DNA from: Streptomyces sp. TRM68367
Lineage (GTDB): Bacteria > Actinomycetota > Actinomycetes > Streptomycetales > Streptomycetaceae
DNA length: 64,000 nt
NCBI RefSeq assembly: GCF_014495685.1
Contig: NZ_JACTVI010000022.1
Span: forward strand, 1 to 64,000
Direction of reading: 5' to 3'
Below are positions 46,763-64,000 of this stretch, one piece after another; within the stretch, counting starts at the first letter, position 1, and the number at the start of each line of letters is the position of its first letter. Made by a program: the position numbers and the translations under genes. The notes below the pieces were generated by a model that saw nothing but the letters and a program-made list of their open reading frames with translations, was not told where the DNA came from and did no database searches.

Positions 46763-46805
46763 ACCTTGCTCGCGGCGACCTCTGCTTCGGCATGTTCCGG
46801 GCACA

Positions 46806-46844: not shown

Positions 46845-46853
46845 CGGTTGTCC

Positions 46854-47093: not shown

Positions 47094-47100
47094 CGTGAAG

Positions 47101-47640
47101 TCAGCGGTGGTCTGCGAGGAAATGGTGTGCGCTCCTTGAGTGCAGGATGTTCTGGTGGATCTCGAGCGTTGCCGTCGAGCGGTTGAGGGTGATGTGGTGC
47201 AGCCCCGGCGCGCCCTCGGCGAGCAGCCGCTCGGCCATGGCCGTGGCGTACTCGACGCCGATGCGGTGACTGCCCAAGGGGCTGTCACGCGCGGCATCCA
47301 GGCGGTGGGCCAGGTGTTCGGGGAAGGCCGCGCCGGACAGTTCGGCGAAGCGACGGATCTGGCGTACGTCGGTGGCCGGCATGATCTCGGGGATGATCGG
47401 GATGTCACAGCCCACGGCCGCCACCCGGTCACGCAGCCGCAGGTAGTCCTCCACATGGAAGAACATCTGCGTGATCGCGTAGTCGGCGCCCGCCCAGCAC
47501 TTGGCCACGAAGTGCCGGATCTCGGACTCCCAGTCCGGAGAACGCGGATGCTTCTCGGGAAAGGCCGCCACACCCACACGGAACTGGCCGGACTGCTTGA
47601 CAAGGCGGACCTGCCGTCGGACCCCGCGGTCGGCCGCGGC
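47101..47640 (-). pseudogene. C-terminal half of methylenetetrahydrofolate reductase (metF)
   Basis: Matches MetF from about its midpoint: [95 protein letters not shown]. The N-terminal half with the first FAD-binding strands is absent, and the frame is preceded directly by truncated metK. The reading frame is still open over about 158 codons from an internal GTG, but a half barrel is unlikely to work. Confidence 0.85.
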
Positions 47641-47658
47641 CTGGAGTCCGTCGGTGAC

Positions 47659-48436
<778 letters not shown>

Positions 48437-49546: not shown

Positions 49547-49587
49547 CGAAGTGCTCCTTCTTGGCAGTCGCCACGTGAATCACGGCT

Positions 49588-50058
49588 TCAGCGCAGCAGT
49601 GAGAATTTCTTGGTCAAGGGGTCGACATCGGCCCGGGTTCCGAACACGGCCACGCCGTAGTAGTCGAGATCGCTCTCCGGGGTCTGCTTCATCCGGTCCA
49701 GCTGGTCGAGGTAGCTGCCGCCGGTCATCTGCGCAGTGAAGTCCGTGCAGAGCAGGCCGGAATCCAGAGCTTCGCCGCGCAGCTTGCGCAGCCAGGCCGG
49801 CCGCCCTTCGAGCGCGATCAGCGACAGCCCGGACACGGGAGAATGGTCATTGCCCGAGGCATCGGGAAATTGCAGAAACGACATCCTCTGCACCAGCTCG
49901 GGCCGCTCTGCCGCGGCCTTCGCGACCAGCCCGAGACACAGGTGAGAAGCAGCATTTGCGGCCACCCCCCGGTCAAGTTTTGCCTTGAGTGCCACCACGA
50001 ACTTATATTCGGCGTCGACCTGCTCGGACGCCACGACGACTTCTCCGACTTCAAGCAT
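49588..50058 (-). CDS. DUF2000-family protein
   Basis: A 156-residue protein with the DUF2000 outline: KFVVALKAKLDRGVAANAAS at residues 19-38, LGLVAKAA, SGLSLIALEGRPAWLRKLRG, DFTAQMTGGSYLDQLDRMKQ, and YYGVAVFGTRADVDPLTKKF at the end. Some relatives act on peptidyl-tRNA-like or amino-acyl substrates, but the family has no agreed function. It begins an apparent minus-strand unit with sbnB 41 bp downstream, tying it to diaminopropionate supply. Confidence 0.78.
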   Translation of the reverse strand: MLEVGEVVVASEQVDAEYKFVVALKAKLDRGVAANAASHLCLGLVAKAAAERPELVQRMSFLQFPDASGNDHSPVSGLSLIALEGRPAWLRKLRGEALDSGLLCTDFTAQMTGGSYLDQLDRMKQTPESDLDYYGVAVFGTRADVDPLTKKFSLLR

Positions 50059-50475
50059 GCGAATACCCCAAGAAACTACTCTCGATGTGGTGCTGATCCA
50101 CCGTACGTGCAGAATCAGCTTGGGCCCCGGATTAATTACTCTTTCCCTGCCCGGCGCGTGCGAGGCCCGCTTGACCGGCCTTCAGAAGCTATGCGGTGAG
50201 GGGGACTTGCGCGCGAACGGCAGAACCTGGCGATGTTTGAGGACGAGCGCGCGCTCGGTACCAGGACGGAGAGCACCGGAGCCCAGGCGGTGCCCAGGAG
50301 AGCGACAGCGCTACCAGGCACATGACAGTGACGCACGGAATGGACCATGCGACGACGCGGAGAACTGCCGGACAACGGCTGCCCCGGCTGTCGGAGCGAT
50401 TCGGTGACGGGCCCGGTCGGCGCGGGGTCGCTGTGCCGACCGGACCCGCCCGATCCGCGGGAAGCGCTTCGGCTG
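50059..50475. other. Intergenic region, no gene seen
   Basis: 417 bp between the methyltransferase stop and the DUF2000 start, both on the minus strand. It should contain the DUF2000-sbnB promoter. No motif stands out. Confidence 0.45.
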
Positions 50476-51141
50476 TCAGCCCTGCGGCGTTGCGTACACG
50501 ACCCAGTTGTCATGGGTGTGCGGGTAGGGACGGAAGTCGCCGTGCGGCGGGTCGTCCCAGGAGATCCGGCGGATCTCGTGGATGGTCCAGTCCGCGAACA
50601 GGCCGCGCATCTCGTCCTCTTCGTAGTACCGGAACAGCGTGTCCTTGTAGGCGAAGGTGTGCGGGGCTATCTCCTCGCCCTCGCCGTAGGTCTGGTCCTT
50701 GAGGGTGAACGCGTTCGTGACGAAGAGGCCGCCGGGCGCGACGATCCGGCGCGCCTCGGTGATGAGGTCAGTGGGGTCCTGGATCTGGCCGAACACGTCG
50801 AAGCAGGTCACCGCGTCCACTGACGCGTCCACCAGCGGAAGTCCGGTGGCATCGGCCCGGAGCAGGAACGAGCGCTGCTTGATGATGCGGCGCGCGTGTG
50901 CGAGACCCGTCGGCGCGATGTCCACCCCGAGCGCGTTGAAGCCGGCCTCGGCCAGCGCGGCGAGGTTTCGCCCGTCACCGCATCCGAGGTCCACGACGGT
51001 GCGCACGTTGCGCTCCTTGAGAGCCTCGATGGCCTGGGGGATCACGGGGATGGGATCCTCCTGCCACAGGGGGCCCTCGTCCTGCTCCTGGTAGGCCTTC
51101 TCCCAGCCGTACTGGAGCTCCGAGTATGCGTGGGCTGTCAT
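50476..51141 (-). CDS. Class I SAM-dependent methyltransferase
   Basis: A 221-residue methyltransferase: SAM motif I VVDLGCGDGRNLAALAEAGF near residue 44, acidic loop VDIAP, motif II/III DASVDAVTCFDVFGQI and RRIVAPGGLFVTNAF. The N-terminal SELQYGWEKAYQEQ and C-terminal WDDPPHGDFRPYPHTHDNWV recall small methyltransferases of the tellurite-resistance/UbiE type. The ATG follows AGGAGG. The substrate is probably the cluster product or an intermediate. A broken SAM-recycling cassette lies a few kb away. Confidence 0.85.
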   Translation of the reverse strand: MTAHAYSELQYGWEKAYQEQDEGPLWQEDPIPVIPQAIEALKERNVRTVVDLGCGDGRNLAALAEAGFNALGVDIAPTGLAHARRIIKQRSFLLRADATGLPLVDASVDAVTCFDVFGQIQDPTDLITEARRIVAPGGLFVTNAFTLKDQTYGEGEEIAPHTFAYKDTLFRYYEEDEMRGLFADWTIHEIRRISWDDPPHGDFRPYPHTHDNWVVYATPQG

Positions 51142-51833
51142 GTAGCCTCCTCTAGATGACACCGAAGGCTCATCTTATGTCTCCGTGGTGACACGTAAAG
51201 GGCCGTCTCAAGATCTGAACGGAGTCCGTAAGGTGCCAACTTCCCTGAGTCTGCGGGTAGTTGAGATACTGGTCCCAGCCTGTGTGGCGGATGCCGGGGC
51301 TCCGAAGTGCGGCCCGGCCAGGCAAAGACACCGTTTCCAGGCCGCGGCGGGCGATTCGGTACGCCAACGCCGGTATGATCACAGGAACTTGACGTTTCGT
51401 CATCAAGTCGCCGTCGTTCGGGGCGGCGAGGTGACGGCCGCGATCCAGGCAGCGCCTTGCGGGCGGGCGTCCCCGCTCGGCAGGAGCGGAACGAGCAGGT
51501 GGCGGCCGGCTTTCCCCTCCTGCGTGAGCGCCGCGCGACCCGTGCGTCAGCGCGGGCCCAAGGGTCGCGCGCTGATTTCCTAAAACAGACCAGATCGGAC
51601 AGCTTTCATAGGCCACTCGTCCAGATAGTGGGACCGGCCTTTCCCTGGGCGGTAGTGCTATGTATTGTCCCTGGCGGCCCTGGCGCTAGGGGCGGTTCAA
51701 GTCCCGCCGAGCCAGTCAGAGCGGCATTGTCGCGAATCATCGGCAATTGAACGAGGCAGGCGCCGATGCCAACTGTTCTCCTGCCTCAGGTATGTTCTTC
51801 CACGAATGATCCTGCGCGGATGGCGGGTGTGGT
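51142..51833. promoter_or_regulatory. Divergent control region of the biosynthetic operon
   Basis: 692 bp without a supported gene, between divergent methyltransferase and aminotransferase genes; promoters for both should be here. GGCGGTTCAAGTCCCGCCGA at 51691-51710 resembles a tRNA T-arm, but the stem does not pair in the standard 5-7-5 form and no tRNA can be folded upstream. Confidence 0.5.
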
Positions 51834-53186
51834 ATGGGTGCACGAGTCATTACCGAAATTCCTGGTCCAGCATCGAAGCGACTGCTTGACGAACAGGCTG
51901 TTACTGAATCTTCGGCGCGGGCTTACCCGCGCCTTACACCGATCGCTGTCGGCGGTGCGGACGGGGCCTACCTCAGCGACGTCGACGGCAATGTTTTCCT
52001 CGACTTCCTCACCGGTGCGGGCGTGCTGGTGCTCGGTCACAACCACCCGGAACTTGTGCGCGCAGCCCAGGCTCAGCTCGAGGTCAGCACCCACGGCCTT
52101 GATTTCCCCACCGAGGCCAAGCGGGACTTCACCGGCGAGCTTCTCCGGATGCTGCCGGAGGGGATGCACGGCACTACCAAGATCCACTTTTGCGGACCAA
52201 CCGGGGCAGATGGTGTCGAAGCGGCCATCAAGCTGTGCAAAACCTTCACAGGTCGCAGTGGTGTCGTGTCGTTCCACGGTGGCTTCCACGGCAGTACGCA
52301 GAGCACAGTTGCACTTACCGGACTGCGAGCCTCGAAGGACCTCCCGGGTAACCCGCAGGTTGCCTCGTTCTTCCCCTACTCCTACTGCCACAAGTGCCCG
52401 TTAGGACTGTCGCCGGAGAGTTGTTCGGTCAATTGCATCCAGTATCTGGAGAACATGCTGAACGACCCCAACGGAGGCACCCCGCGGCCAGCCGCAGCGA
52501 TCCTGGAAATGGTCCAGGGCGAGGGCGGCGTGATTCCGGCACATCCTGAATTTGTGCGGCGGCTCAGGGAGACGACCACTGCCCTCGACATCCCGCTCAT
52601 TGTCGACGAGGTACAGACCGGATGCGGCCGTACCGGCACGTGGTTCGCCTTTGAGCAGTACGGTATCGAGCCTGATGTCGTCGTCTCCTCGAAGGGACTC
52701 GGCGGCGGCCATCCCGTATCGGTGATTCTCTTTCATGAGCGCCTGGACGGCTGGAAGCCCGCCGCACACACCGGAACCTTTCGCGGTAATCAGCTGGCAT
52801 TTGCCGCAGGTGCGGCACAGATAAGGGTGATGGAGCGCGACGACGTTCTCGGCAGCGTCCGGAAGGTCGGGGCCCACCTGGAGGAAGGCCTCCGTCGACT
52901 GCAGGAGCGCCACAGCTTCGTTGGTGACGTCCGTGGCCTCGGCCTGATGCTCGGCGTCGAGTTCGGGCCGCTCGGTCCGTGGCCGGCCGGTGAAGTCGTG
53001 GACCGTATCCGGCAGGCCGCGCTCCGCAGGGGTTTGATCTTCGAGCCGGCCGGGCGTGGCGGGTGCGTCGCCCGCCTCCTTCCCCCGCTCAACCTCACCA
53101 TCGAGGAGGCGGACGAGGCGCTGGAGATCCTCACCGCGGCCGTTTCCGAGGTGGCCGAGTCGCTGCGAGGGCACGATGACTGCTGA
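51834..53186 (+). CDS. Class III aminotransferase, diaminobutyrate--2-oxoglutarate transaminase-like
   Basis: PLP enzyme expected to convert aspartate-4-semialdehyde to L-2,4-diaminobutyrate. The 450 residues show DVDGNVFLDFLTGAGVLVLG, HGLDFPTEAKRDFTGELL, FCGPTGADGVEAAIKLCKTF, SFHGGFHGSTQSTVALTG, LIVDEVQTGCGRTGTWFAFE and the PLP lysine in VVSSKGLGGGHPVSVILF. An inserted cysteine cluster (YCHKCPLGLSPESCSVNC) is characteristic of the diaminobutyrate group. Codon 190 is TTA (52401-52403), so translation should need the bldA tRNA. The next gene starts inside its end, and an aspartokinase is that next gene, matching the pathway. Confidence 0.88.
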   Translation: MGARVITEIPGPASKRLLDEQAVTESSARAYPRLTPIAVGGADGAYLSDVDGNVFLDFLTGAGVLVLGHNHPELVRAAQAQLEVSTHGLDFPTEAKRDFTGELLRMLPEGMHGTTKIHFCGPTGADGVEAAIKLCKTFTGRSGVVSFHGGFHGSTQSTVALTGLRASKDLPGNPQVASFFPYSYCHKCPLGLSPESCSVNCIQYLENMLNDPNGGTPRPAAAILEMVQGEGGVIPAHPEFVRRLRETTTALDIPLIVDEVQTGCGRTGTWFAFEQYGIEPDVVVSSKGLGGGHPVSVILFHERLDGWKPAAHTGTFRGNQLAFAAGAAQIRVMERDDVLGSVRKVGAHLEEGLRRLQERHSFVGDVRGLGLMLGVEFGPLGPWPAGEVVDRIRQAALRRGLIFEPAGRGGCVARLLPPLNLTIEEADEALEILTAAVSEVAESLRGHDDC

Positions 53187-54393
53187 GCCGAACCCCGTGA
53201 AGGTCCTGAAGTTCGGCGGGTCCTCGTTCATCGAACTGTCGGACTACGCGACCGTCGCCAAGTATCTGACCGGGATGCTCACGTCCGCCGACGCAAGGGT
53301 CGTCGTCGTGGTGAGCGGGATGTCCGGAAGCACGGGGCGACTGCTCGACGCGGCGCTGAGCATCGATCCGAATCTGCAACCACAGGTACAGGACCAGGTG
53401 TTGTCCACCGCGGAGATGGTCAGCGCGAGCTTCATGCGTGCCGCGTTGAACGCGGCCGGCTGTCCTGCCACCGACCTGTGGGCACCGCAGGCAGGCATTC
53501 GCAGCGACGACGCGGCCACCCAGGCCCGGATCGTGTCCATCGACCCACGCCCGCTCCTCGATGCTCTCAGCGAGCACCAGGTGGTCGTGGTGGCCGGTGG
53601 CCAGGCGATGGACACCGGCAACCGCGTCACGATGCTCGGCCGTAACAGCTCCGACCTCACCGCGGTCGCGCTCGCGGCCAGCCTGTCGGCCGGGCAGTGC
53701 GACATCTTCGGTGACACCCCCGGGATTTGCACGACCGATCCGCAGGTCGTGCCGTCGGCCCGGCTGCTGCCGCAACTGACGTACCGGCAATGCATCGCGA
53801 TGTCCGAGTCGGGCGCGAAGGTGCTGCACTGGGGTGCGGTTCGGTACGCACAGGAGCATGACGTCGTCATACGTTGCCGACGTCTGGACGTGGCGCTCGC
53901 GGGGGAGGACACGCCGGGCACCTCGGTGGGTGCGGGCCCCGGCGAAACCGCGGTCGTGGGTGATGCGCGGATCCGGTTGTACCGGCTGCCGCCGTCCTAC
54001 GACATCACCGCGGTGCTCGGATCGTTACGCGACGCCAACCTCGTTGCTCACGCAGTCGACCACGACGCCACCACCATGCTGGCGTTCCCCGCCGGGCAGA
54101 ACCCGGAACGGTCACTCGCGGACCTGGGCCTGCACGCGGAACCGGTCGACGGCTTCGGCATGGTCTCGGTGATCGCGCCGGACGGCGCCGCCACCAGGCG
54201 GCTCGTCGACCACGGCGAGGTCGGCAGCACCGTCGTCGCGGTGCACGAGCAGCTCTACGGAACCCCCGACGCCGAAGATCGCACCCGGGTCCGGTCCAAA
54301 CCGCGGTCGCCCCACAGCGGCTTGCTGGTCGGGTCCTCGGCCCCGGCTGCGGGCACGGGCAGCGGCGAGCTCACGAACGTCGGCTGGGAGTAA
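53176..54393 (+). CDS. Aspartokinase
   Basis: Phosphorylates L-aspartate, the first step to aspartate semialdehyde and hence diaminobutyrate. The 405 residues have VKVLKFGGSSFIELSDYATV (family KFGGTS), VVVVVSGMSGSTGRLLDAAL, GGQAMDTGNRVTMLGRNSSD (substrate loop), DIFGDTPGICTTDPQVVPSA and MSESGAKVLHWGAVRYAQEH. The C-terminal ACT region is weaker than in housekeeping enzymes and ends with an extra serine/glycine tail, so feedback inhibition may be altered. The ATG follows GAGGG and overlaps the aminotransferase end by 11 bp. Confidence 0.88.
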   Translation: MTAEPNPVKVLKFGGSSFIELSDYATVAKYLTGMLTSADARVVVVVSGMSGSTGRLLDAALSIDPNLQPQVQDQVLSTAEMVSASFMRAALNAAGCPATDLWAPQAGIRSDDAATQARIVSIDPRPLLDALSEHQVVVVAGGQAMDTGNRVTMLGRNSSDLTAVALAASLSAGQCDIFGDTPGICTTDPQVVPSARLLPQLTYRQCIAMSESGAKVLHWGAVRYAQEHDVVIRCRRLDVALAGEDTPGTSVGAGPGETAVVGDARIRLYRLPPSYDITAVLGSLRDANLVAHAVDHDATTMLAFPAGQNPERSLADLGLHAEPVDGFGMVSVIAPDGAATRRLVDHGEVGSTVVAVHEQLYGTPDAEDRTRVRSKPRSPHSGLLVGSSAPAAGTGSGELTNVGWE

Positions 54394-54395
54394 CT

Positions 54396-55286
54396 GTGCG
54401 GCTCATCCTCGGTCTCCTCGTCACCGCCGTCTGGGGCCTCAGCTTCTCGATGATCAAGGTCGCGGAAGAGACCTTCGATCCGTTGTTCCTGCTGGTACTC
54501 CGGTTTGTGCTGTGCTTCCTGCCGGCGGCGTTCTTCCTGCCGCGCCCGCAAGTCCCGCTACGACAACTCGTGAGTTACGGTCTCGTATTCGGGATAGGCC
54601 AGTTCGGTCTGCTCTTCTTCGGTATCCAGGCCGGACTCTCACCCGGCCTTGCCTCCGTCGTGCTCCAGCTCCAGGTGTTCTTCACGATTGCATTCGGTGC
54701 ATGCTTCCTGAAGGAGCAGATGACCAGAGGCCAGAGTGCAGGCCTGGTACTCGGGGCCGCCGGCGTGATACTGATCGGAATGATCACGAAGGGCACGCTG
54801 ACGGTCATCGGCCTGGCCCTTGTCGTCTGTGCGGCCATGTCCTGGGGAATCGCGAACATCCTGGTCAAGAAAATGGGCAACGCGGATCCGCTGGGCCTGA
54901 TCGTATGGTCGAGCCCTATACCGGCAGTTATCCTGCTGCCGTGTGCGCTCGCCATTGAAGGCTATGCCTCGATCGAATCATCCGTGCGTCACATGGACTG
55001 GGCATCCTTCGGGGCCCTACTGTTCATCGCGTATCCCACGACGGTCATCGGCTATTCCGTCTGGAACTCACTTCTGCAGCGGTACGAGGCGGGACGCATC
55101 GCCCCGCTCACCCTGCTCGTCCCGGTCTTCGGGATGGCGTCGTCGACGCTGATCTTCGACGAACGGATCACCACGCCCAAGGCCATCGCCTGCGGCCTGC
55201 TCATTCTCGGGCTCTGCGTGAACCAGATCAACGTGCACCGCCGGAAGGCGCCTGCCACCAGTCAAGTAGAGGAGAAAGTGGCATGA
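54396..55286 (+). CDS. EamA/DMT-family exporter
   Basis: A 296-residue membrane protein with ten helices and two EamA halves: LILGLLVTAVWGLSFSMIKV at the N-terminus, GQFGLLFFGIQAGLSPGLAS, then ALVVCAAMSWGIANILVKKM starting the second half, and IAPLTLLVPVFGMASSTLIF, DERITTPKAIACGLLILGL. The family exports amino acids and small metabolites. GTG start 2 bp after the aspartokinase stop. A likely exporter of the cluster product, a precursor or an intermediate. Confidence 0.88.
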   Translation: MRLILGLLVTAVWGLSFSMIKVAEETFDPLFLLVLRFVLCFLPAAFFLPRPQVPLRQLVSYGLVFGIGQFGLLFFGIQAGLSPGLASVVLQLQVFFTIAFGACFLKEQMTRGQSAGLVLGAAGVILIGMITKGTLTVIGLALVVCAAMSWGIANILVKKMGNADPLGLIVWSSPIPAVILLPCALAIEGYASIESSVRHMDWASFGALLFIAYPTTVIGYSVWNSLLQRYEAGRIAPLTLLVPVFGMASSTLIFDERITTPKAIACGLLILGLCVNQINVHRRKAPATSQVEEKVA

Positions 55287-55870
55287 GCAAAATCGCGCTT
55301 CTGACAAATGACCTGCAGTACGAGTTGGTCAACAAGAACGAAGACCGCAGCCGCGCGGTTGCCGAATCGATTCCCCGCTTCACCAAGTTCCTCCAGGCGA
55401 TGCGGGACCGCGGGCACCACGTCGTACACCTGCAGATCGTCAACCTGCCCGACGACCCGAATGCGGAACGTTGGAACGACGGGCACCTGCCGGTTCAGAA
55501 GGGCACGCCCGGAGCCGAGATCATGGCCGAATTCCTCGAGGATTCGGACATCGTCATAGAGAAGCACAAGGACAGCGGGTTCTACGAGACGGACCTCCAC
55601 GACCGTCTCCAGGAGCTCGGCGTCACGACCGTGGTCATCACGGGTATGCAGACCCAGATCTGCGTACAGACCACGGCCGCCGACGCGTTCTTCCGCGGTT
55701 ACAACGTGTGGGTTCCCTCCGACTGTGTCGTCTCCGCGCACGAGGCCGACCGGCAGCGCGCGCTCGAATGGCTGGACGGCTACTGCGCGACGGTTTCCGA
55801 CTCCGAGGACATCGTGCGGGTTCTGGACAGCGAAGGTGAGCTGCCCCGCAAGGAGGTGGTGACCCCGTGA
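55283..55870 (+). CDS. Isochorismatase-family cysteine hydrolase
   Basis: A 195-residue hydrolase with the family's catalytic triad visible: aspartate in ALLTNDLQYELV, lysine in VIEKHKDSGFYET and nucleophilic cysteine in TGMQTQICVQTTAADAFFRG. Family members hydrolyse amides, ureas (N-carbamoylsarcosine amidase), nicotinamide or enol ethers. Beside HypE/HypF, hydrolysis of a carbamoyl or related group is an attractive guess, not shown by sequence. Its ATG overlaps the EamA stop and its stop overlaps the hypE start. Confidence 0.85.
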   Translation: MSKIALLTNDLQYELVNKNEDRSRAVAESIPRFTKFLQAMRDRGHHVVHLQIVNLPDDPNAERWNDGHLPVQKGTPGAEIMAEFLEDSDIVIEKHKDSGFYETDLHDRLQELGVTTVVITGMQTQICVQTTAADAFFRGYNVWVPSDCVVSAHEADRQRALEWLDGYCATVSDSEDIVRVLDSEGELPRKEVVTP

Positions 55871-56901
55871 CCATGTCGCCTTCCGTGACGGACACCGACA
55901 CCGTCATCCTCGACCACGGCACCGGAGCCCGCCGCAGCCGCGAGCTCGTAGAACTCATCTCGGCCACGCTCGGCGACGTCTACATCGGCGAGATGGAAGA
56001 CAGCGCGATCCTGACCGTGGACGGTGCACAGATCGCCGTCACCACCGACTCGTTCGTGGTGGACCCGGTCCTCTTCGGCAACGGCGACATCGGCAAGATC
56101 GCCGTCTGCGGCACCGTCAACGACCTCGCCGTCGCCGGTGCGGAACCGCGCTACCTCACGCTCGGCATGATCCTCGAGGACGGACTGCCCCTGTCCACGC
56201 TCGTACGGGTTCTCACCTCGATCCGGGACACCGCGAAGGAAGCCGGCGTCGTGATCGTGGCCGGCGACACGAAGGTCGTACGCAAGGGCGAGGCGGACCA
56301 GATCTACCTCAACACCACCGGAGTCGGTGTCTTCAAGCGCCCGCCGCTTCGCATGCGGGACGTGCAGCCGGGCGACAAGGTGATCCTTAGCGGTCCGATC
56401 GGCAACCACACCGTGCACCTGCTCTCGATCCGCGAAGGCCTCGGCTTCGAGACTCGCGTGCTGAGCGACTGCGCGCCGCTGAACGGGATGCTGGCCGACG
56501 TGTTCGAAGCGACGGGCGGCGGGACCGGCGTGCACTCCATTCGCGACGTCACCCGTGGCGGGCTCAACGCGGTCCTCAACGAGTACGCGGCCACGGTCGG
56601 CACGACGGTGCTGGTCGACGAGCAGGCGATCCCGGTGCAGCCGGAAACCGCGATGGCCATGGACATGCTCGGCATCAGCCCGCTCAACGCCGCAAACGAG
56701 GGATGCGCCTGTCTGTTCGTCGCCCCGTCAGCGGCGGAGGCCGTCCTGGAAGCCCTGCGCAGCCACTCGTACGGCGCCGGTGCCGTGGTGATCGGCGAAG
56801 TCACCGATGAACCGACCGCGCGAGTCCAGCTGCAGGACGCGAACGGCAGGCGCGAGACGCTCGACGAGCTCGCCGGAGCCGAGCTGCCGCGGCTCTGCTG
56901 A
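55867..56901 (+). CDS. hypE: HypE, carbamoyl dehydratase (nitrile-forming)
   Basis: In hydrogenase maturation HypE carries a carbamoyl group on its C-terminal cysteine and dehydrates it with ATP to a thiocyanate. The 344 residues are full length: ILDHGTGARRSRELVELISA at the N-terminus, DSAILTVDGAQIAVTTDSFV, FGNGDIGKIAVCGTVNDLAV, GVVIVAGDTKVVRKGEADQI, GDKVILSGPIGNHTVHLLSI and RDVTRGGLNAVLNEYAA. The protein ends LPRLC, like the family's PRIC, so the acceptor cysteine is kept. The GTG start overlaps the preceding stop. hypF follows; no hypA/B/C/D or hydrogenase gene is nearby. Confidence 0.93.
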   Translation: MTMSPSVTDTDTVILDHGTGARRSRELVELISATLGDVYIGEMEDSAILTVDGAQIAVTTDSFVVDPVLFGNGDIGKIAVCGTVNDLAVAGAEPRYLTLGMILEDGLPLSTLVRVLTSIRDTAKEAGVVIVAGDTKVVRKGEADQIYLNTTGVGVFKRPPLRMRDVQPGDKVILSGPIGNHTVHLLSIREGLGFETRVLSDCAPLNGMLADVFEATGGGTGVHSIRDVTRGGLNAVLNEYAATVGTTVLVDEQAIPVQPETAMAMDMLGISPLNAANEGCACLFVAPSAAEAVLEALRSHSYGAGAVVIGEVTDEPTARVQLQDANGRRETLDELAGAELPRLC

Positions 56902-56922: not shown

Positions 56923-59283
56923 ATGGAAACGATGGACACCGCAGAGTGCTGGCGTGTGCGGGTGACGGGCGTGGTTCAGGGAGTTGGCTTCCGGCCGTTC
57001 GTCTACCGGCTGGCGCAGGAGCACTCTCTGACCGGATGGGTCAACAACGACAGCGCGGGCGTATTCCTCGAAGCCCAGGGCCACCCGCGGGACCTGTCGG
57101 CCTTCACCGCCGCACTGTCGGCCGAGGCACCACCGCTGGCCCGGGTGGACGAGGTCTCGGTCAAGGAACGGCTGCCGGCCTCGGAAGGACGGGAAGCCTT
57201 CGTCATCCGGGCGAGCGAGAACTGCGGTTCGGCCACGACGGTCGTGCCGGCCGACTCGCACGTGTGCGACGACTGCCTGGCCGAGATTCGTGATCCAGCG
57301 GACCGGCGCTACCGGTACCCGTTCGTCAACTGCACGCACTGCGGCCCGCGTTACTCACTCATCCGCGGCCTCCCCTACGACCGGGCGGCCACCACGATGG
57401 TGGCGTTCCCCATGTGCGCGGACTGCGAACGCGAGTACCGCGACCCGCTCGACCGCCGCTATCACGCCCAGCCGACCGCCTGCCCGCACTGCGGGCCGAA
57501 GCTCACCGCCTCGGTCCTGGACGAGGACGGCCGGGTGCGGGCCGTCGGCGAGAGCGAGGAGGCTCTGACCGCGGCCCTCGACACCCTGCAGCGCGGCGGG
57601 ATCGTCGCGGTCAAGAGTGTCGGCGGATTCCACTTGGCGGCCGACGCACGCAACGCCGACGCCGTCGCCCTGCTGCGGACGCGCAAGCGGCGCGACAGCA
57701 AGCCGTTCGCCGTCATGGTGAGCGACCTGGCAGCGGTCGACCGGATCGCCTGGCACACCCAGGCCGAGGACGAGCTCATGCTCTCGCCCGCTCGCCCGAT
57801 CGTGCTCCTGCGCAAGCGGGAGGCCGTGCTGCCGGACAGCGTGGCGCCCCGTAACCCCAACCTGGGCGTCATGCTGCCGTCAGCGCCCCTGCACCACCTG
57901 CTGCTCGACCGTGCGGGCATGGACGTGCTCGTCATGACGAGCGGAAACGTATCGGGCTACCCGATCGAGTTCCGCAACGAGGACGCCCTTGAGCGCCTGT
58001 TCGAGGTGGCCGATCTCGTCCTGCACCACGACCGTGACATCGAGACCCGGGTGGACGACTCCGTCATGCGGACGTCGGAGCACCCGGAGCTGAGCGGGCC
58101 CCTGGTCACGTTCCTGCGGCGCTCGCGCGGTTACGCCCCGTACGCACTGCACGTTCCGATCGACATGAGCCCGGTCGTCGGCCTCGGAGCCGAGCTCAAG
58201 GTCACCGTGTCGCTGGCGCGCGGCCGCAGCGTGTACATGAGCCAGCACATCGGCGACGTGAAGAACGACGAGACCTTCGACTCGCACCGCACGGCCGCCG
58301 AGCATCTCGCGCGCCTCTACGAGCTCGCACCGAGCCTGGCGGCATGCGATCTGCACCCGGACTTCCGTGCTTCCGTGTACGCCCGCGACACCTACGGCGG
58401 CGAAGTCGAGGAAGTACAGCACCACCACGCCCACATGTCCGCCTGCATGGCCGAGAACCAGCTCACCGGCGCCACGATCGGGGTGGTGTTCGACGGCTTC
58501 GGATACGGCCTGGACGGCACCGTCTGGGGCGGCGAGTTCCTGCTCGGGGACTACTGCTCGGTGGAACGCGTCGCCCACCTGCGGCGCTTCCCCCTCCTCG
58601 GCGGCGACCAGGCGGTACGCGAGCCGGTGCGCACCGGGTTCGCGCTCGCCGTCGACGCGCTCGGCGACAAGGACGCGGCCGCGGCGGCGTTCCCCGCGCT
58701 GGGCGCACTCGACGAGCAGCAGCAGTCCGTCTACGCCGTCATGGCGGCCCGAGGCATCAACTCGCCGCGCACGTCGAGCATGGGCCGGCTGTTCGACGGC
58801 GCGGCAGCGCTGCTCGGCATCTGCGGCCGCGCGGAGTACGAGGCGCAAGGGCCGATCGAACTCGAAGGCCTGCTGCGACGAGAGCTGGAAATGGCGCCGA
58901 CAGACGCCTATCAGGTGCTGCGGCAGCCCGAGCCGGAAGCCGTGGAGCTGGACTGGCGGCCACTGATCAGGGCGCTCGCCGCCGACGTCGCCGCGGGCAT
59001 CGCCCCGGCCGCGGTCTCCCGGCGCTTCCACTCCGGGATCGTGGCCATGGTGCTCGCCGAATGCGATGCGATCAGGCGGGAGCACGGCATCAACCAGGTC
59101 GTGCTGTCGGGAGGCGTGTTTCTCAACGAATTCCTTCTCGTCAACTGCCTCGTCGCCCTGCGGAAGTCCGGGTTCGAGGCCCACTGCCACCAACTCGTCC
59201 CCACCAATGACGGCGGAATCTCGCTGGGCCAGGCCGTGGTGGCGAGTGCGCGGCAGGCAAAGCGCCGCCGAGCCGAGAGCTGA
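56923..59283 (+). CDS. hypF: HypF, carbamoyltransferase
   Basis: Transfers the carbamoyl group of carbamoyl phosphate, via carbamoyl-AMP, to the C-terminal cysteine of HypE. All domains are present in 786 residues: acylphosphatase (VTGVVQGVGFRPFVYRLAQE, residues 14-33), two zinc fingers (C115, C118, C137, C140 and C165, C168, C187, C190), a YrdC-type domain (GIVAVKSVGGFHLAADARNA, RKRRDSKPFAVMVSDL), and a Kae1-like domain (HHHAHMSACMAEN metal histidines, GVVFDGFGYGLDGTVWGGEF, VVLSGGVFLNEFLL). A simple O-carbamoyltransferase (TobZ type) lacks the acylphosphatase part, so this is true HypF. It sits 21 bp after hypE, in one operon. Confidence 0.95.
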   Translation: METMDTAECWRVRVTGVVQGVGFRPFVYRLAQEHSLTGWVNNDSAGVFLEAQGHPRDLSAFTAALSAEAPPLARVDEVSVKERLPASEGREAFVIRASENCGSATTVVPADSHVCDDCLAEIRDPADRRYRYPFVNCTHCGPRYSLIRGLPYDRAATTMVAFPMCADCEREYRDPLDRRYHAQPTACPHCGPKLTASVLDEDGRVRAVGESEEALTAALDTLQRGGIVAVKSVGGFHLAADARNADAVALLRTRKRRDSKPFAVMVSDLAAVDRIAWHTQAEDELMLSPARPIVLLRKREAVLPDSVAPRNPNLGVMLPSAPLHHLLLDRAGMDVLVMTSGNVSGYPIEFRNEDALERLFEVADLVLHHDRDIETRVDDSVMRTSEHPELSGPLVTFLRRSRGYAPYALHVPIDMSPVVGLGAELKVTVSLARGRSVYMSQHIGDVKNDETFDSHRTAAEHLARLYELAPSLAACDLHPDFRASVYARDTYGGEVEEVQHHHAHMSACMAENQLTGATIGVVFDGFGYGLDGTVWGGEFLLGDYCSVERVAHLRRFPLLGGDQAVREPVRTGFALAVDALGDKDAAAAAFPALGALDEQQQSVYAVMAARGINSPRTSSMGRLFDGAAALLGICGRAEYEAQGPIELEGLLRRELEMAPTDAYQVLRQPEPEAVELDWRPLIRALAADVAAGIAPAAVSRRFHSGIVAMVLAECDAIRREHGINQVVLSGGVFLNEFLLVNCLVALRKSGFEAHCHQLVPTNDGGISLGQAVVASARQAKRRRAES

Positions 59284-59299: not shown

Positions 59300-60547
59300 A
59301 TGTCCAATCGCGTACTGGTGGTTCAGCCGGCGTTCTCAGGCAACGCCTATGTCGCCCATGCCCGTTCCCTTGGCTGGGACGTCCTGGTGGCCTCCCACGA
59401 AGGTGGCAGCCGCCAGGTGGCGGAGCCCGTACGGTCTCTCGCCACGGAGCTGATCACGGTGGACACCAACGACAGCGCGGCACTGGCGGCCGCCGTCGAC
59501 GAGGCCCACCAGCGGAGCAAGATCGACGCCGTGGTCGCCGGCGGCGAGTTCTACGTACCGGCCGCGGCGCGCCTCGCCGACCAGCTCGGTGTGCTCGGCC
59601 TTGACCCCGCTGCCGTCGACCGGGTCCGGCGCAAGCCGGACATGCGTCATGCGGTGGCCGACGCCGGCCTGGAGGTACCGAGGTTCACCGTGGTCCGCGA
59701 CCTGGCGGGCCTCGACGAGGCCTGCGCCTACGTGGGCTTCCCCGCCGTCATCAAGCCGGTCGAATCCGGCGGCAGCATCCATGTGTCGCGCGTCGACAGC
59801 CTGGAGGAGGCACGCGCGGCGCTGGAGGCGATATACGCCGACGAGGAGCTCGAGTTCGACAGGCCGCTCGACACCGATGCCATCGTCGAGCAGTACGTGT
59901 CCGGTCCGGAGTACAGCGCCGACGGCTGTGTGCACGACGGCGAAGTCGTCGTCGTGGCTGTGACGAGGAAGCTGCTCGGCCCCGAGCCGCGCTTCCTCGA
60001 GATCGGGCACCTCACACCGGCCCCGCTCGACGAAGCCACTCGGCAGGAGATCACGAAGTACGCCGAGGGCGTCGTCAAGGCGGTGGGGATCACGACGGGG
60101 CCCTTCCACTGCGAGTTGCGACTCGGCATCGACGGCCGCCCCGTTCTCATGGAGATCGCCGCGCGCCTGCCCGGCGACAAGATCACCGAGCTCATGGAGA
60201 TGAGCACGGGCCTGGTGCTGCCGAGAATGGTCCTCGCGTCGGCCACCGGCTCCGATCCGGTGAGCGCGGGGGCGTACCGGGAACCTGATGCCCCCGCGGC
60301 CGGGATCCGTTTCCTGACCGCCAGCGGATCAGGTGCCTACACACGCCTCGAAGGCTGGGACGAACTGACGGCGGAGCCGTGGGTGGTGGGCAGCCAGATT
60401 CTCATCGAACCGGGCGCCGCCGTCAGGACCGACGAAGCGGACTACCGCTGCAGGATCGCCGTCGTCGTCTTCACAGCGGGATCACCTGCCGAGGCACAGG
60501 AGCGCTGGACCGAGATCGGCGACCGCGTGCGCGTGCTCGGCGACTAG
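59300..60547 (+). CDS. ATP-grasp carboxylate-amine ligase 1
   Basis: Predicted to join a carboxylic acid to an amine through an acyl phosphate, as in dipeptide-antibiotic ligases. The 415 residues have an N-terminal preATP-grasp domain (RVLVVQPAFSGNAYVAHARS), the ATP-binding lysines and loop (PAVIKPVESGGSIHVSRVDS), DAIVEQYVSGPEYSADGCVH, and the metal-binding end GRPVLMEIAARLPGDKITEL. The ATG lies 17 bp after hypF, behind GAGG. Its TAG stop falls in the CTAG that borders a MITE, so the C-terminus may have been cut by insertion, though the protein looks complete. Confidence 0.88.
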   Translation: MSNRVLVVQPAFSGNAYVAHARSLGWDVLVASHEGGSRQVAEPVRSLATELITVDTNDSAALAAAVDEAHQRSKIDAVVAGGEFYVPAAARLADQLGVLGLDPAAVDRVRRKPDMRHAVADAGLEVPRFTVVRDLAGLDEACAYVGFPAVIKPVESGGSIHVSRVDSLEEARAALEAIYADEELEFDRPLDTDAIVEQYVSGPEYSADGCVHDGEVVVVAVTRKLLGPEPRFLEIGHLTPAPLDEATRQEITKYAEGVVKAVGITTGPFHCELRLGIDGRPVLMEIAARLPGDKITELMEMSTGLVLPRMVLASATGSDPVSAGAYREPDAPAAGIRFLTASGSGAYTRLEGWDELTAEPWVVGSQILIEPGAAVRTDEADYRCRIAVVVFTAGSPAEAQERWTEIGDRVRVLGD

Positions 60548-60741
60548 TGCCGCGGCAGGCAACGTTTGCCCGTCAAGGAGCGGCGTCCGGTGCGTGCTCT
60601 CGGCGTGCCGGCCGGAAGCCCTCGTACTGGACGTACTTGGGCTTTCGGCCGGTGCGGCGAGAGGGGGTACCTCCCACGCCTTTAAGGCAGTGGGGGAGCC
60701 TGCCGGACGCCGCGACGGGGCGAACGTTGCCTGTCGCGGTA
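60548..60741. mobile_element. MITE-like element with ~25-bp terminal inverted repeats
   Basis: The left end TGCCGCGGCAGGCAACGTTT and the inverted right end TACCGCGACAGGCAACGTTC match with three mismatches over about 25 bp. GCGGCGTCCGG is repeated just inside both ends. The element is flanked by CTAG on each side (60544-60547, 60742-60745), a plausible target duplication. An inner inverted repeat (GGCCGGAAGCCC / GGGCTTTCGGCC) gives a long hairpin. It encodes no transposase; near-identical sequences are remembered from other Streptomyces genomes. Confidence 0.8.
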
Positions 60742-60783
60742 CTAGCTCCGCACGAACAGCAACCCACGATGCGTACACCACGG

Positions 60784-61875
60784 ATGGAGAACATGGAGCC
60801 TCTGCGCGTTCACTGGTGCTCACCGCCGGACACCGGCCAGGCGACGCCGACGGACAAGTACAAGACAGGCACGCTCGACATGGCCGAGGTCGTCGACTTC
60901 GTCCAGGAAGCCGAAGAGCTCGGCGTCGACAGCCTGCTGATGGGCATCGGCCACTACTTGCCCGACCCGCTGCCCGTGGTGGGCGCCCTCACGCAGGTGA
61001 CGGACCGGGTCAAGTTCATGCTCGCCTACCGTCCCGGACTGCTCTCGCCGACCCTGTTCGCCCAGGTCGTCAACACCCTGTCCTGGATGTCCGACGAGCG
61101 CATCTCCCTCAACATCGTCTCGGGGATCTCCCCGGCCGAGCAGGCCGGCTACGGCGACTTCCTCAGCCACGACCAGCGCTACGAGCGCTGCCGTGAGTTC
61201 CTGGAGATCATCCGGGGGTTCTGGGGCGGCCAGTCGCCGCTGACCTACGACGGAGAGCACTACTCCGTCAAGGACGCCGAACTGGGCCTCGGCTACAAGG
61301 GAGGCGGGCGCCCGGAGATCTACATCAGCGGGGCGTCCGGGGTGGCGCAAGGGACAGCTCTCGCCCTCGGCGACTGCTGGCTGCGCTACGGCGACACCCC
61401 CGAAGGGATCGCCGAGGCGAGCCGGCCCCTCATCGAGGGTGGCCGCCGGGTCGGCACCAGGATGCACGTGCTCGCCCGCCCCACCCGCGAAGAGGCGGTG
61501 GCCGAGCTCGCCGAGCTGATGCGCAATCCCGACACGCAACACGAGGCGTGGGTCCGCGATTTCGTGGCCAAGGCCGACTCCGAAGCGGTGAAGTCCTCCT
61601 ACCGGCTGGCCGACCAGGCCGTCGGCGAATGGCTGTCGCCCTACATCTGGACCGGAGCCGTCGCCTACCGCGGGGGTCCCGCGCTGTGCATCGTCGGCAG
61701 CTACGAAGAGGTGGCCACGTACATCCACAGCTACAAGGCCGCGGGCATCAGCGAGTTCATCTTCTCCGGATGGCCGACCCGGGACGAGATGAGGATCTTC
61801 TTCACCCATGTGCTGCCCCTGATCCGGGATCTCGAGTGGGCGGAGGCCGCGCAGGCCGCGACCGCCGTGTCATGA
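60784..61875 (+). CDS. LLM-class flavin-dependent monooxygenase (SsuD-like)
   Basis: FMNH2-dependent luciferase-fold oxygenase of 363 residues, related to alkanesulfonate monooxygenases. It shows PLRVHWCSPPDTGQATPTDK at the start, FVQEAEELGVDSLLMGIGHY, PGLLSPTLFAQVVNTLSWMS, RISLNIVSGISPAEQAGYGD, GRPEIYISGASGVAQGTALA and SEFIFSGWPTRDEMRIFFTH. The reaction could be N-hydroxylation, C-S or C-N cleavage; sequence does not decide. A reductase partner is not adjacent. The start is uncertain among ATGs at 60769, 60784 and 60793. The MITE ends 42 bp upstream and may affect expression. Confidence 0.87.
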   Translation: MENMEPLRVHWCSPPDTGQATPTDKYKTGTLDMAEVVDFVQEAEELGVDSLLMGIGHYLPDPLPVVGALTQVTDRVKFMLAYRPGLLSPTLFAQVVNTLSWMSDERISLNIVSGISPAEQAGYGDFLSHDQRYERCREFLEIIRGFWGGQSPLTYDGEHYSVKDAELGLGYKGGGRPEIYISGASGVAQGTALALGDCWLRYGDTPEGIAEASRPLIEGGRRVGTRMHVLARPTREEAVAELAELMRNPDTQHEAWVRDFVAKADSEAVKSSYRLADQAVGEWLSPYIWTGAVAYRGGPALCIVGSYEEVATYIHSYKAAGISEFIFSGWPTRDEMRIFFTHVLPLIRDLEWAEAAQAATAVS

Positions 61876-61913
61876 ACGCAGTTCGTCCCCGCAGAGAAGT
61901 CTGAGGAACAGCT

Positions 61914-63155
61914 ATGCACATTGTTGTCATTAACCGCTGGCCGAGGTTCTCCGACGAGCGGCGCTGGGACCACGAGCTCAGCCGCTTCGAGGAGTTCATC
62001 GACCACGACCGGCACCGCATCAGCTACGTGGTCGATCCGGTCGGCGAGACCGGCGTGCTCGCGGACCGCTCGAAGATCGCCCGTCTCGTCAAGATCGAAG
62101 ATGTCAACGATTTCGAGGCGCTCTGCGGGGCTGTGCGCGAGATCGAGGCCGAGGTCGGGCCGGTCGACCAGCTCGTCGCACTGTCGGAGTTCACCCTTGC
62201 CATCGCGGCCGAGGTCCGCGAGGCACTCGGTATCCCCGGCCCGCGCCCTGAGGAGGTGGCGGTCTACCGGAACAAACTGAGGATGAAGGAGCTCGTCGCG
62301 AAGGCCGGGGTGCGCGTGCCGCGCTTCGCTCCGTGCGGCGACGCGGAATCCGCCGTGGCCTTCGCGCGGTCGGTCGGGTACCCGCTGATCCTCAAGCCGG
62401 TCGGCGGCGCGGCCAGCATCGGGGTGCACCGGGTGGAGGACGAGCCCACGCTCCTGTCGCTGCTCGGCACGGTCGACCCCGAGGAGTACGAGATCGAGGA
62501 GTTCATCGCCGGGGCCATCTACCACGTGGACGGCTTCGCCGACGACGAGGCGCGGATACCGTTCCAGGCGGTGTCCCGCTACGTCAACGACTGTCTGTCG
62601 TACGAAGCCGGCGGAGCGCCGCTCGGCTCGGTCGTACTGCAGGCGTCCGAACTGCGGGACCGCGTCGAGGAGTTCGCCCGGACCTGCGTGTCGGCGCTGG
62701 GCATGAAGTCGATGCCGTTCCACCTCGAGGTCTTCGTCTCCGACAGCGGCGAACTGGTCTTCCTGGAGATCGCCGGCCGCATCGGCGGCGCCGAGGTCCC
62801 GTACCTCACGCACCGCCTCTTCGGGGTCAACCTCTGCCAGGTCTGGCTGAACGCGCTCTGCGAGGGGACGGTGACGCTCCCGCCCAAGACAGGGGATCCG
62901 TCGGGCGGTTGGCTGATCATCCCGAAGCCGGAGCAGCTCCCGGCACGGGTGATCTCGGTGACCTCCCTGCGCGACATACCGACGGTCTGGCGGGAACTGG
63001 TGCCGAGCCCGGGTGACGTACTGGCCCCGGGAGGCAGCTACGACGCGGTGCACAGCGGACGGTACATCTTGGTCGGGGACGAGGCGGCCGTGGAACAGGA
63101 CATCCGCAGGATCGTCGACGAATTCCGCATCGAGACCGAACCGGTGCCGGAGTGA
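61914..63155 (+). CDS. ATP-grasp carboxylate-amine ligase 2
   Basis: Second ligase of 413 residues, distinct from the first. Start MHIVVINRWPRFSDERRWDH; ATP-grasp core PLILKPVGGAASIGVHRVED, EYEIEEFIAGAIYHVDGFAD and GELVFLEIAGRIGGAEVPYL. Two different ATP-grasp enzymes suggest two amide bonds, so a tripeptide-like product or a dipeptide with a further amide. The ATG follows GAGGAACAG. Stop overlaps the MFS start (GTGA). Confidence 0.88.
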   Translation: MHIVVINRWPRFSDERRWDHELSRFEEFIDHDRHRISYVVDPVGETGVLADRSKIARLVKIEDVNDFEALCGAVREIEAEVGPVDQLVALSEFTLAIAAEVREALGIPGPRPEEVAVYRNKLRMKELVAKAGVRVPRFAPCGDAESAVAFARSVGYPLILKPVGGAASIGVHRVEDEPTLLSLLGTVDPEEYEIEEFIAGAIYHVDGFADDEARIPFQAVSRYVNDCLSYEAGGAPLGSVVLQASELRDRVEEFARTCVSALGMKSMPFHLEVFVSDSGELVFLEIAGRIGGAEVPYLTHRLFGVNLCQVWLNALCEGTVTLPPKTGDPSGGWLIIPKPEQLPARVISVTSLRDIPTVWRELVPSPGDVLAPGGSYDAVHSGRYILVGDEAAVEQDIRRIVDEFRIETEPVPE

Positions 63156-64000
63156 CGGCGGCACACGCCGCGCAGCAGACCGCGGACACCACGGAAGCAC
63201 ACCACACCGCCAAGCGGCAGCGGCTGCACCGCCGCCTGTTCGCCTGCGGCGTCCTGTTCGGAGTCGTCGCCGAGCAGATCGTGCTCTTCGCCGTGCCCCT
63301 CCTCATCTTCCAGGACACCGACGAAGTCTCGTCACTCGGATTCGCCTATGCCATCGAGTGGCTTCCGGCCCTGCTGGCGTATCCCTTCGCGGGACTTCTC
63401 GCCGATCGGGACGGCGGCACACGGCTGTTCACCTGCGTCAGCGCAGGGCGGGCGGTCGTCATCGGCGGCGCGCTCGTCGGCTGTCTGGCGGCTCCGTCCC
63501 TGCTGACGCCGATCCTGATGACCTCAGGGGCGCTGCTCTCCCTGTTGATGGCGCCGGTACGGATGTCCATCGAGAAGGTGGTGCCCCAGCTGGCCAAGGG
63601 CACTGAGCTGGCGAAGACCCAGGGCCTGGTTCAGAGCATGGAGGTGTCGGCGATGGCCGTCGGCCCCGCCCTCGCCCTGCTCGGTGTGGCCTTCGTCGGC
63701 AAGTTCTGGCTCCTGGCCGGCGCCTCGGCGGCGTTCCTCGCGGCGGCGGTCTGCTGGCTGCCGCTGCCTCGCGGGCTGCGGTCGGCCGGCAGTGGCAGTG
63801 TGCGGGAGAGCTTCGCCGAACTCGCCCTGGGCTGGTCCCTCCTGGTGCGCAACAGGCCGCTCGTTCTGCTCGCCGTCCTCAACTTCTCGATCAACCTGGT
63901 CTTCGCCACCGTACTCAGCGCCAATGCCGCACTCGTCACGGGCGTGTTCCACGCTCCCGAGTCCGCGTACGCCGTGCTCAACATCTGCGTCGGCGTCCTG
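63152..64000 (+). CDS. MFS exporter (N-terminal part, cut by window end)
   Basis: Major facilitator transporter of the DHA3-like group. 283 codons are present with about seven helices: LFACGVLFGVVAEQIVLFAV, FAYAIEWLPALLAYPFAGLL, then the loop ADRDGGTRLFTC (family DRxxRR), and later LVLLAVLNFSINLVFATVLS. It probably exports the cluster product and gives self-resistance. GTG start overlaps the ligase stop. The cluster continues past the right edge. Confidence 0.88.
   Translation, partial: MTAAHAAQQTADTTEAHHTAKRQRLHRRLFACGVLFGVVAEQIVLFAVPLLIFQDTDEVSSLGFAYAIEWLPALLAYPFAGLLADRDGGTRLFTCVSAGRAVVIGGALVGCLAAPSLLTPILMTSGALLSLLMAPVRMSIEKVVPQLAKGTELAKTQGLVQSMEVSAMAVGPALALLGVAFVGKFWLLAGASAAFLAAAVCWLPLPRGLRSAGSGSVRESFAELALGWSLLVRNRPLVLLAVLNFSINLVFATVLSANAALVTGVFHAPESAYAVLNICVGVL

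Follow-up and report, generated by a model that had tools for sequence, protein, structure and literature searches.

What would two ATP-grasp ligases build around a flavin monooxygenase in a region that encodes no modular peptide synthetase? The question is raised by positions 59,300 to 63,155 of a 64,000-nucleotide stretch of the Streptomyces sp. TRM68367 genome (contig NZ_JACTVI010000022.1, positions 1 to 64,000; hereafter the window, and C135 for the contig of 105,989 bases). An initial annotation of this trio proposed a small peptide or pseudopeptide with two amide bonds, one residue of which would be oxidized by the monooxygenase. This proposal held for the kind of ligase, but it missed a module of HypE, HypF, and a cysteine hydrolase, together with diaminobutyrate genes in the window and glutamate-mutase genes past its end, all in the same operon; these genes are more informative about the product than the ligases. 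We consider, at a probability of approximately 50%, that the product of the operon is a short peptide assembled by the ATP-grasp ligases and carrying, on one residue that is probably diaminobutyrate, a C-N unit derived from carbamoyl phosphate.

HypE, HypF, and a cysteine hydrolase in one operon

The operon comprises 14 genes on the plus strand and extends from position 51834 to base 3764 of the 20 kb that follow the window, approximately 3.8 kb past its end. From 5' to 3', the first seven genes encode a diaminobutyrate aminotransferase, an aspartokinase, an EamA exporter, the cysteine hydrolase, HypE, HypF, and ATP-grasp ligase 1. The other seven encode a luciferase-like monooxygenase (LLM), ATP-grasp ligase 2, a transporter of the major facilitator superfamily (MFS), a B12-binding small subunit, a glutamate-mutase large subunit, a flavin reductase, and an aspartate-semialdehyde dehydrogenase, the start codon of which is uncertain. 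Adjacent genes overlap or lie at most 38 bases apart, and the sole long gap separates ligase 1 from the LLM.

The HypE gene (55867..56901, plus strand) encodes a protein of the carbamoyl dehydratase type that ends in LPRLC and scored 421.1 bits against TIGR02124 (cut-off 251.6). Its residues K136, E278, and the C-terminal C344 are conserved. In an alignment with PDB 2z1e, K136 and E278 correspond to K134 and E272, and both residues are identical in 98 of the 98 HypEs compared; we take 2z1e to originate from T. kodakarensis and this pair to be catalytic in dehydration. The full-length HypF (56923..59283, plus strand; TIGR00143, 763 bits, cut-off 466.1) carries the Pfam acylphosphatase, YrdC, and Kae1-like domains and two zinc fingers. 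In [NiFe]-hydrogenase maturation, the cyanide made by HypE and HypF is described as going to the [NiFe] cofactor in the accessible text of sources including PMC12130793, PMC4506123, PMC12134894, and PMC6022934, and HypE carries thiocyanate/isothiocyanate on the way (PMC4506123, accessible text).

The proteins of the operon share with these hydrogenase counterparts their full length, scores over the curated cut-offs, and the retained Lys, Glu, and C-terminal Cys, and they would share the predicted chemistry, in which carbamoyl phosphate becomes a protein-bound thiocyanate. They differ from the hydrogenase system in having a cysteine hydrolase as partner, a PRLC rather than PRIC ending, a separate HypE branch, and a small-molecule cluster as setting. 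Moreover, a HypD search of the genome, made without one for HypC, returned no match, nor did HypD occur in 88 loci inspected around this and related genes; the [NiFe] hydrogenase large subunit (PF00374) had 0 matches in the genome. The single HypF match of the genome lies in the operon. With one HypF, no HypD, and no large subunit, an assignment of the hyp genes to a hydrogenase locus in this genome was rejected. A second HypE-like gene of the same genome (L056:9465-10481, on contig G000:C207) lacks both the GDTK lysine and the C-terminal cysteine, and its neighbors resemble what we take to be SARP-type regulators; partial HypE-like genes also occur at L057-L059.

The hydrolase gene (55283..55870, plus strand) belongs to the isochorismatase superfamily (PF00857, 135.9 bits) and reached no equivalog cut-off. 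Residues D10, K94, and C127, presumably the catalytic Asp-Lys-Cys triad of the superfamily, are invariant in 15 of 15 aligned hydrolases. The nearest PDB folds to its AlphaFold2 model (pLDDT 90.3) were triuret and biuret hydrolases, and the nearest protein by sequence was related to N-carbamoylsarcosine amidase. Judged by model and sequence, its relatives are thus enzymes that act on N-C-N groups.

Spread of the module and the HypE lineage

Among 391 genomes of the order that were searched with HypE, 11 besides the present one encode a HypE at 67-71% identity and 3 at 57-59%; among the matches listed, further full-length proteins were at most 48% identical, and some partial ones reached 49-50%. 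The hydrolase and HypF stood beside or near HypE in all 14 loci with a HypE of at least 56% identity; the hydrolase was absent from both hydrogenase-type loci examined and from all four that have a partial HypE-like gene. The 14 loci were set in ATP-grasp clusters, in nonribosomal peptide synthetase (NRPS) clusters with a free-standing condensation domain, and in clusters with an arginase-family gene, the last of which also hold a gene with weak, sub-cut-off matches to the haem-oxygenase fold.

As a test independent of HypE and HypF, an alignment of 15 hydrolases was scanned against 84,980 species genomes. The scan yielded 74 loci, and 67 of these carried both HypE and HypF, in the order hydrolase-HypE-HypF on one strand in 61 and in another arrangement in 6. 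The hosts that entered the HypE tree belong to Actinomycetota, Pseudomonadota, Myxococcota, Bacillota, and Chloroflexota. Homologues of the diaminobutyrate aminotransferase were present in 19 of the 74 loci and ATP-grasp homologues in 20. On plasmids, the hydrolase matched at an E value of 1e-30 in 10 of 72,556 records, with HypE and HypF alongside in the five whose annotation was read. At least 80% of an enterobacterial module was matched on the chromosome in 14 of 5,426 complete Escherichia coli genomes, and the 10 that were listed carry annotated hydrolase, hypE, and hypF genes. These findings reveal that hydrolase-HypE-HypF is a portable module.

Three individual loci illustrate its surroundings. 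In E. coli Z1323HEC0462 (L147), the chromosomal order is LysR, hydrolase, hypE, hypF, HAD phosphatase, and MFS, near broken integrases and a tRNA-Asn gene. The Streptomyces clavuligerus plasmid pF1D35B (L149) holds the module with an arginase-family gene, DUF3865, ATP-grasp, and MFS genes and resembles L053-L055. On the Paraburkholderia phymatum plasmid pBPHY02 (L148), the module with ectB and a GNAT gene lies directly beside hup hydrogenase genes.

A sugar-type setting was observed at L089, L098, L099, L106, and L107, where an epimerase, a DegT aminotransferase, a protein of the inositol-monophosphatase family, and a sugar transporter are encoded in all five loci, three of which also have a Nudix-like gene; in four, a carbamoyl-phosphate synthase-like gene adjoins the module. 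The synthase genes, which were assigned to loci by coordinate reckoning, include a second large chain beside the module in Saccharothrix (L089; 1072.3 bits, cut-off 1027), a relative in Streptomyces (L099) in which a 1011-residue frame has three matched pieces, none over the cut-off, and shorter relatives in Amycolatopsis (L106 and L107). The product of these clusters could be an amino sugar bearing the C-N unit. Allosamidin- or trehazolin-like 2-aminooxazolines, as we understand their structures, were considered for them, and nothing among the literature matches listed connected such compounds with HypF.

In a tree built by a quick method, with long branches in some rows, a single label change sufficed to separate 72 module HypEs from 26 hydrogenase-type HypEs, and the branch between them had an SH-aLRT support of 100. 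The hydrogenase-type set consisted of the next-best HypE loci L027-L041 (15 of 15 with HypD in the 2.6-4.0 kb covered), E. coli K-12, and the loci L136-L146 fetched for HypD. Left out of the tree were 10 duplicate loci of genomes already present, seven partial HypEs (L056-L059, L074, L121, and L125), and six loci without a HypE match (L086, L123, L129, and L131-L133). The enterobacterial module HypEs clustered with the other module HypEs and apart from that of E. coli K-12. The two groups also differed in their last four residues, which read PRLC in every one of the 72 module HypEs (in 70 directly from the extracted sequence and in L092 and L110 by reading beyond the alignment end) and PRIC in 26 of 26 hydrogenase-type HypEs. 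According to the accessible text of PMC12130793, every HypE protein has the PRIC motif, and cyanide delivery to the HypCD scaffold requires it.

HypD was found in none of the 14 and 74 module loci (L042-L055 and L062-L135). At the genome level, the survey combined 15 genomes of the G series with 50 of the 67 loci in which HypE and HypF accompany the hydrolase, which without L096 gave 64 genomes searched; of the other 17 loci, eight lie, judged by contig, in G-series genomes already included and nine were left out. The results revealed no HypD match in 34 genomes, a match over the cut-off in 28, and a weaker match in 2. On this evidence, we regard the module as very probably a dedicated HypE-HypF system outside hydrogenase maturation. 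More than 60 loci, a dedicated HypE lineage, a recurring hydrolase, and 34 of 64 genomes without a HypD match suggest a second use of these enzymes in the making of small molecules.

An earlier report touched on such a locus. The accessible text of the decRiPPter study (PMC7794033, 2020) describes one candidate cluster for ribosomally synthesized and post-translationally modified peptides that holds an ATP-grasp ligase gene and homologues of hypE and hypF, with no other hyp genes detected, and suggests a novel function. That cluster shares hypE, hypF, and the ATP-grasp gene with the present operon; it is a single cluster treated in passing, and the accessible passages mention neither a hydrolase nor a separate lineage, nor do they refer to clusters of other types. 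Among the literature matches listed, none linked a HypE/HypF cluster that stands apart from hydrogenase maturation to a product or reaction; with most subscription journals outside the coverage, this absence counts as weak evidence. The enzymes themselves are known; we found no earlier account of the module as a recurring unit, of the lineage that sets it apart, or of its hydrolase partner.

The ligases, the monooxygenase, and the mutase half

The two full ATP-grasp proteins at 59300..60547 (ligase 1, 415 residues) and 61914..63155 (ligase 2, 413 residues) flank the luciferase-fold LLM at 60784..61875 (363 residues), all on the plus strand, at the coordinates first assigned to them. With 25-26% identity between them, the ligases fit their description as unlike in sequence. 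We further confirmed the stated absence of NRPS and polyketide synthase genes from the window: the genome has 55 AMP-binding (PF00501) and 20 ketoacyl-synthase (PF00109) matches, all of them outside C135:1-64000. The nearest adenylation domain is at C135:75505, 11.5 kb past the window, and the nearest ketoacyl-synthase fragment, with an internal stop, is at C135:77522, 13.5 kb past.

Ligase 1 is of the L-amino-acid-ligase type (ATP-grasp_4, 86.9 bits; LAL_C2, 38.3 bits, cut-off 29.4), and its best PDB sequence match was BL00235 (3vot; 4.5e-32). Ligase 2 (ATP-grasp_4, 49.9 bits) has the L-amino acid ligase RizA (4wd3; 1.1e-20) as its nearest solved relative, and BacD was among the PDB sequence matches of both. 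Six of the seven best PDB matches to the AlphaFold model of ligase 1 (mean pLDDT 76.5, five-sequence alignment) were chains of 3vot (BL00235), BacD/YwfE, and RizA, and the seventh was the phosphoribosylglycinamide synthetase 4dim. Ligase 1 thus resembles BL00235, BacD/YwfE, RizA, and DdaF in fold, domain layout, and nearest solved structures, but it is just 16-24% identical to BL00235, BacD/YwfE, and RizA in the structural matches. Ligase 1 scored 55 bits against DdaF (cut-off 840) and 52.9 against BacD (850); ligase 2 scored 31.2 against BacD (850), and DdaF was absent from its best 25 of 34 families. The initial annotation had invoked dapdiamide- and bacilysin-type ligases. Sequence (both ligases) and fold (ligase 1) support the nearest relationship with L-amino-acid (dipeptide) ligases, but because the BacD cut-off (both) and the DdaF cut-off (ligase 1) were far from reached, the comparison holds for the kind of ligase and not for the substrate. 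A housekeeping role of either ligase, the finding named beforehand as decisive against the peptide proposal, was rejected: no cut-off was reached among the best 25 of 30 families (ligase 1) or 25 of 34 (ligase 2), other ATP-grasp frames exist elsewhere in the genome, and no sign of primary metabolism was seen.

The LLM (PF00296, Bac_luciferase, 157.6 bits; best PDB match 7jv3) has the FMNH2-dependent alkanesulfonate monooxygenase SsuD as its closest sequence relative, and a flavin reductase is encoded in the same operon. It nevertheless differs from SsuD in falling far under the cut-offs (PRK00719, 181.6 versus 510 bits; 175.8 versus 518 bits), and no sulfonate gene was recognized in the operon. 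At an E value of 1e-60, a search of 396 genomes of the phylum returned a match in its own genome alone.

The large subunit of the putative mutase matched the MutE family (PF06368, 284.6 bits), and the small subunit matched the B12-binding domain at 41.2 bits. Because the glutamate-site residues R, Y, E, and K, the roles of which we assume to be those in 6h9e, are conserved in an alignment with that structure, 3-methylaspartate is the likely product. The pair resembles glutamate (methylaspartate) mutase in its two subunits, MutE family match, and glutamate-site residues; it differs from 6h9e and 1cb7 in a large subunit approximately 50 residues shorter and a DxHxxN stretch in the small subunit, and it missed the equivalog cut-offs. 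The small subunit had no PDB match.

Besides the present genome, four of 392 genomes encode the large subunit at 67-70% identity. In addition to the LLM, MFS, and flavin reductase genes, all four sibling clusters comprise the genes of both mutase subunits, ATP-grasp 2 (63-67%), a further ATP-grasp gene, and a gene for a protein without a Pfam match that contains a GGGKDST stretch, presumably a PP loop. The 20-35 kb examined of each cluster yielded none of the diaminobutyrate genes, the hyp genes, or ATP-grasp 1. Because these four genomes carry the LLM, mutase, and second-ligase half alone, the operon of the window seems to join two sub-clusters, and the gap at 60548..60783 (236 bp; 221 bp if the LLM starts at the ATG at 60769) coincides with their junction. 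In three of the four sibling clusters (L178-L183, same genus), a divergent class II tRNA-synthetase-like gene lies upstream, possibly for self-resistance.

The remaining genes of the operon lie on the plus strand as well. The first gene (51834..53186) encodes a class III aminotransferase of the diaminobutyrate--2-oxoglutarate transaminase family (TIGR00709, 418.3 bits, cut-off 401.6), and the narrower models PRK06938 (481.3 versus 671 bits), PRK06931, and EctB were all under their cut-offs. The aspartokinase (53176..54393) was matched in Pfam by its catalytic domain alone (PF00696, 133.3 bits), and every aspartate kinase model among the matches listed was below its cut-off. The EamA/DMT exporter (54396..55286; PF00892, 120.2 bits) is nearest to the O-acetylserine/cysteine exporter (NF008523, 217.4 bits, below the cut-off of 472). 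The MFS transporter (63152..64000 in the window; PF07690, 51.7 bits on this part) runs approximately 440 bp beyond the window end, and its full frame is present in the contig.

Proposed pathway, alternatives, and surroundings

We infer every reaction, product, and acceptor of the pathway that follows. The first half of the operon (aminotransferase, aspartokinase, exporter, hydrolase, HypE, HypF, and ATP-grasp 1) would make 2,4-diaminobutyrate from aspartate and then modify it; the aspartate-semialdehyde dehydrogenase at the far end may supply the same route. The module would take carbamoyl phosphate and deliver a C-N unit to a small molecule, which we regard as more probable than not because the HypE residues are kept, HypF has its domains, the hydrolase is akin to enzymes of carbamoyl groups, and carbamoyl-phosphate synthase-like genes adjoin the module in sugar-type loci. 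Because the searches of this genome yielded neither a HypD scaffold nor a hydrogenase as recipient of the cyanide, the hydrolase, a relative of carbamoyl-group hydrolases, may be what passes the unit to a small-molecule amine. Diaminobutyrate is favored as the acceptor here because its aminotransferase is encoded in the operon and has homologues in 19 of the 74 loci, although we put this assignment slightly below an even chance. With such a diamine, a cyanamide might close to a cyclic guanidine, a step that we consider rather unlikely. The second half (LLM, ATP-grasp 2, MFS, two-part mutase, and flavin reductase) would provide a 3-methylaspartate-derived partner oxidized by the LLM, and the LLM, reductase, mutase, and ligase 2 occur together in the four sibling genomes as well. 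The two ligases would join the units without an NRPS; that the product is an ATP-grasp-built peptide is quite probable.

Several findings weigh against this reading. In the stretch covered, at least one of HypE and HypF is missing from seven of the 74 loci found with the hydrolase: L086 has a HypF fragment at its edge, L123 and L132 have HypF, L125 has part of HypE, and L129, L131, and L133 have neither. Some HypD match was present outside the module locus in 30 of the 64 module genomes (28 over the cut-off), so that cross-talk with hydrogenase maturation is possible there. The module of Paraburkholderia phymatum adjoins hup hydrogenase genes including a HypC gene, the sole such place among the annotated regions read. 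The enterobacterial operons read (hydrolase, HypE, HypF, HAD phosphatase, and MFS) have no aminotransferase or ligase alongside; diaminobutyrate is therefore unlikely as a universal acceptor, and the enterobacterial and sugar-type operons need another one. Both mutase subunits fall below the NCBIfam equivalog cut-offs, and the small subunit has DxHxxN where DxHxxG, which we take to be the motif of B12-binding subunits, is expected. No product was found for any module cluster, and the hydrolase could merely hydrolyze a by-product.

Different fates of the C-N unit were weighed against its delivery to an amine. If HypE served as a carbamoyl carrier alone, the product would gain a ureido (N-carbamoyl) group, and the hydrolase would trim or proofread such groups. 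We consider this outcome improbable: the Lys and Glu aligned with the 2z1e pair, to which we ascribe dehydration, are kept in 72 of 72 module HypEs, and HypE should be superfluous for plain carbamoylation, O-carbamoyltransferases such as TobZ working without it. What speaks for carbamoylation is that carbamoyl groups are the substrates of the structures nearest to the hydrolase (by fold, triuret and biuret hydrolases; by sequence, a protein related to N-carbamoylsarcosine amidase) and that HypF is itself a carbamoyltransferase according to the accessible text of a review. More doubtful still is attachment of the C-N unit to carbon, as a nitrile, or to sulfur, as a thiocyanate. The thiocyanate/isothiocyanate on HypE (PMC4506123, accessible text) leaves other acceptors chemically open, and the cluster types vary among NRPS, sugar, and ATP-grasp, but the recurring partners make amines (the diaminobutyrate aminotransferase homologue in 19 of 74 loci and the DegT aminotransferase in sugar-type clusters), and no recurring thiol- or carbanion-forming enzyme was seen among the annotated part of the neighbors.

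Two further alternatives concern the peptide itself. That both ligases are of the L-amino-acid-ligase kind would suit a plain dapdiamide- or bacilysin-like peptide in a cluster where the hyp genes are functionless hydrogenase remnants. This is the least credible of the alternatives, since hypE and hypF are full length and overlap or nearly abut their neighbors, their HypE belongs to a separate lineage, the hydrolase accompanies both genes in 67 of 74 loci, and no hydrogenase large subunit was found in the genome. The mutase product might instead pass through the aspartokinase, aspartate-semialdehyde dehydrogenase, and aminotransferase, which would give 3-methyl-2,4-diaminobutyrate as the modified residue and thus one line of synthesis rather than two residues. 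All four steps are encoded in one operon, with the dehydrogenase directly after the mutase and reductase; this variant was weakened by the four sibling clusters, which have the mutase with the LLM, ligase, and reductase but lack those three genes in the 20-35 kb examined, and the mutase product therefore need not pass through them. We consider this single line unlikely, although less so than the carbamoylation outcome.

Returning to delivery of the C-N unit to an amine, we tentatively suggest a broader role, for which the odds are lower than for the peptide described here. HypE, HypF, and the hydrolase may form a portable device of several bacterial phyla that uses carbamoyl phosphate to generate an electrophilic C-N unit, the biological equivalent of cyanogen bromide, and places this unit on small-molecule amines; depending on the neighboring genes, the products would be cyanamides, cyclic guanidines (from diamines such as diaminobutyrate), or 2-aminooxazolines (from amino alcohols or amino sugars). 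If true, the device would constitute an arginine-free route to guanidine-type groups and a possible enzymatic way of placing a cyano carbon on an amine, and the hydrolase-HypE-HypF order with the PRLC ending would serve as a searchable marker for unexplored clusters. Caution is warranted with public annotation, which labels the module genes after hydrogenase.

Further gene groups lie on both sides of the operon. Downstream, a separate NRPS-like group on the minus strand (L009:3921-12710, approximately 67.9-76.7 kb of C135) encodes an acyl-CoA dehydrogenase, a thioesterase-like protein, and an adenylation domain, and the broken ketoacyl-synthase fragment at C135:77522 lies on the strand opposite to it. 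Upstream, divergent minus-strand genes at 48512-51162 encode a member of the ornithine cyclodeaminase/mu-crystallin family, a DUF2000 protein, and a methyltransferase, with no match in any of the 14 module loci compared. Farther upstream, the minus strand of 46000-48400 includes the C-terminal end of an adenosylhomocysteinase; with frames that we take to resemble pieces of MetK and MetF, this region reads like a decayed S-adenosylmethionine cassette.

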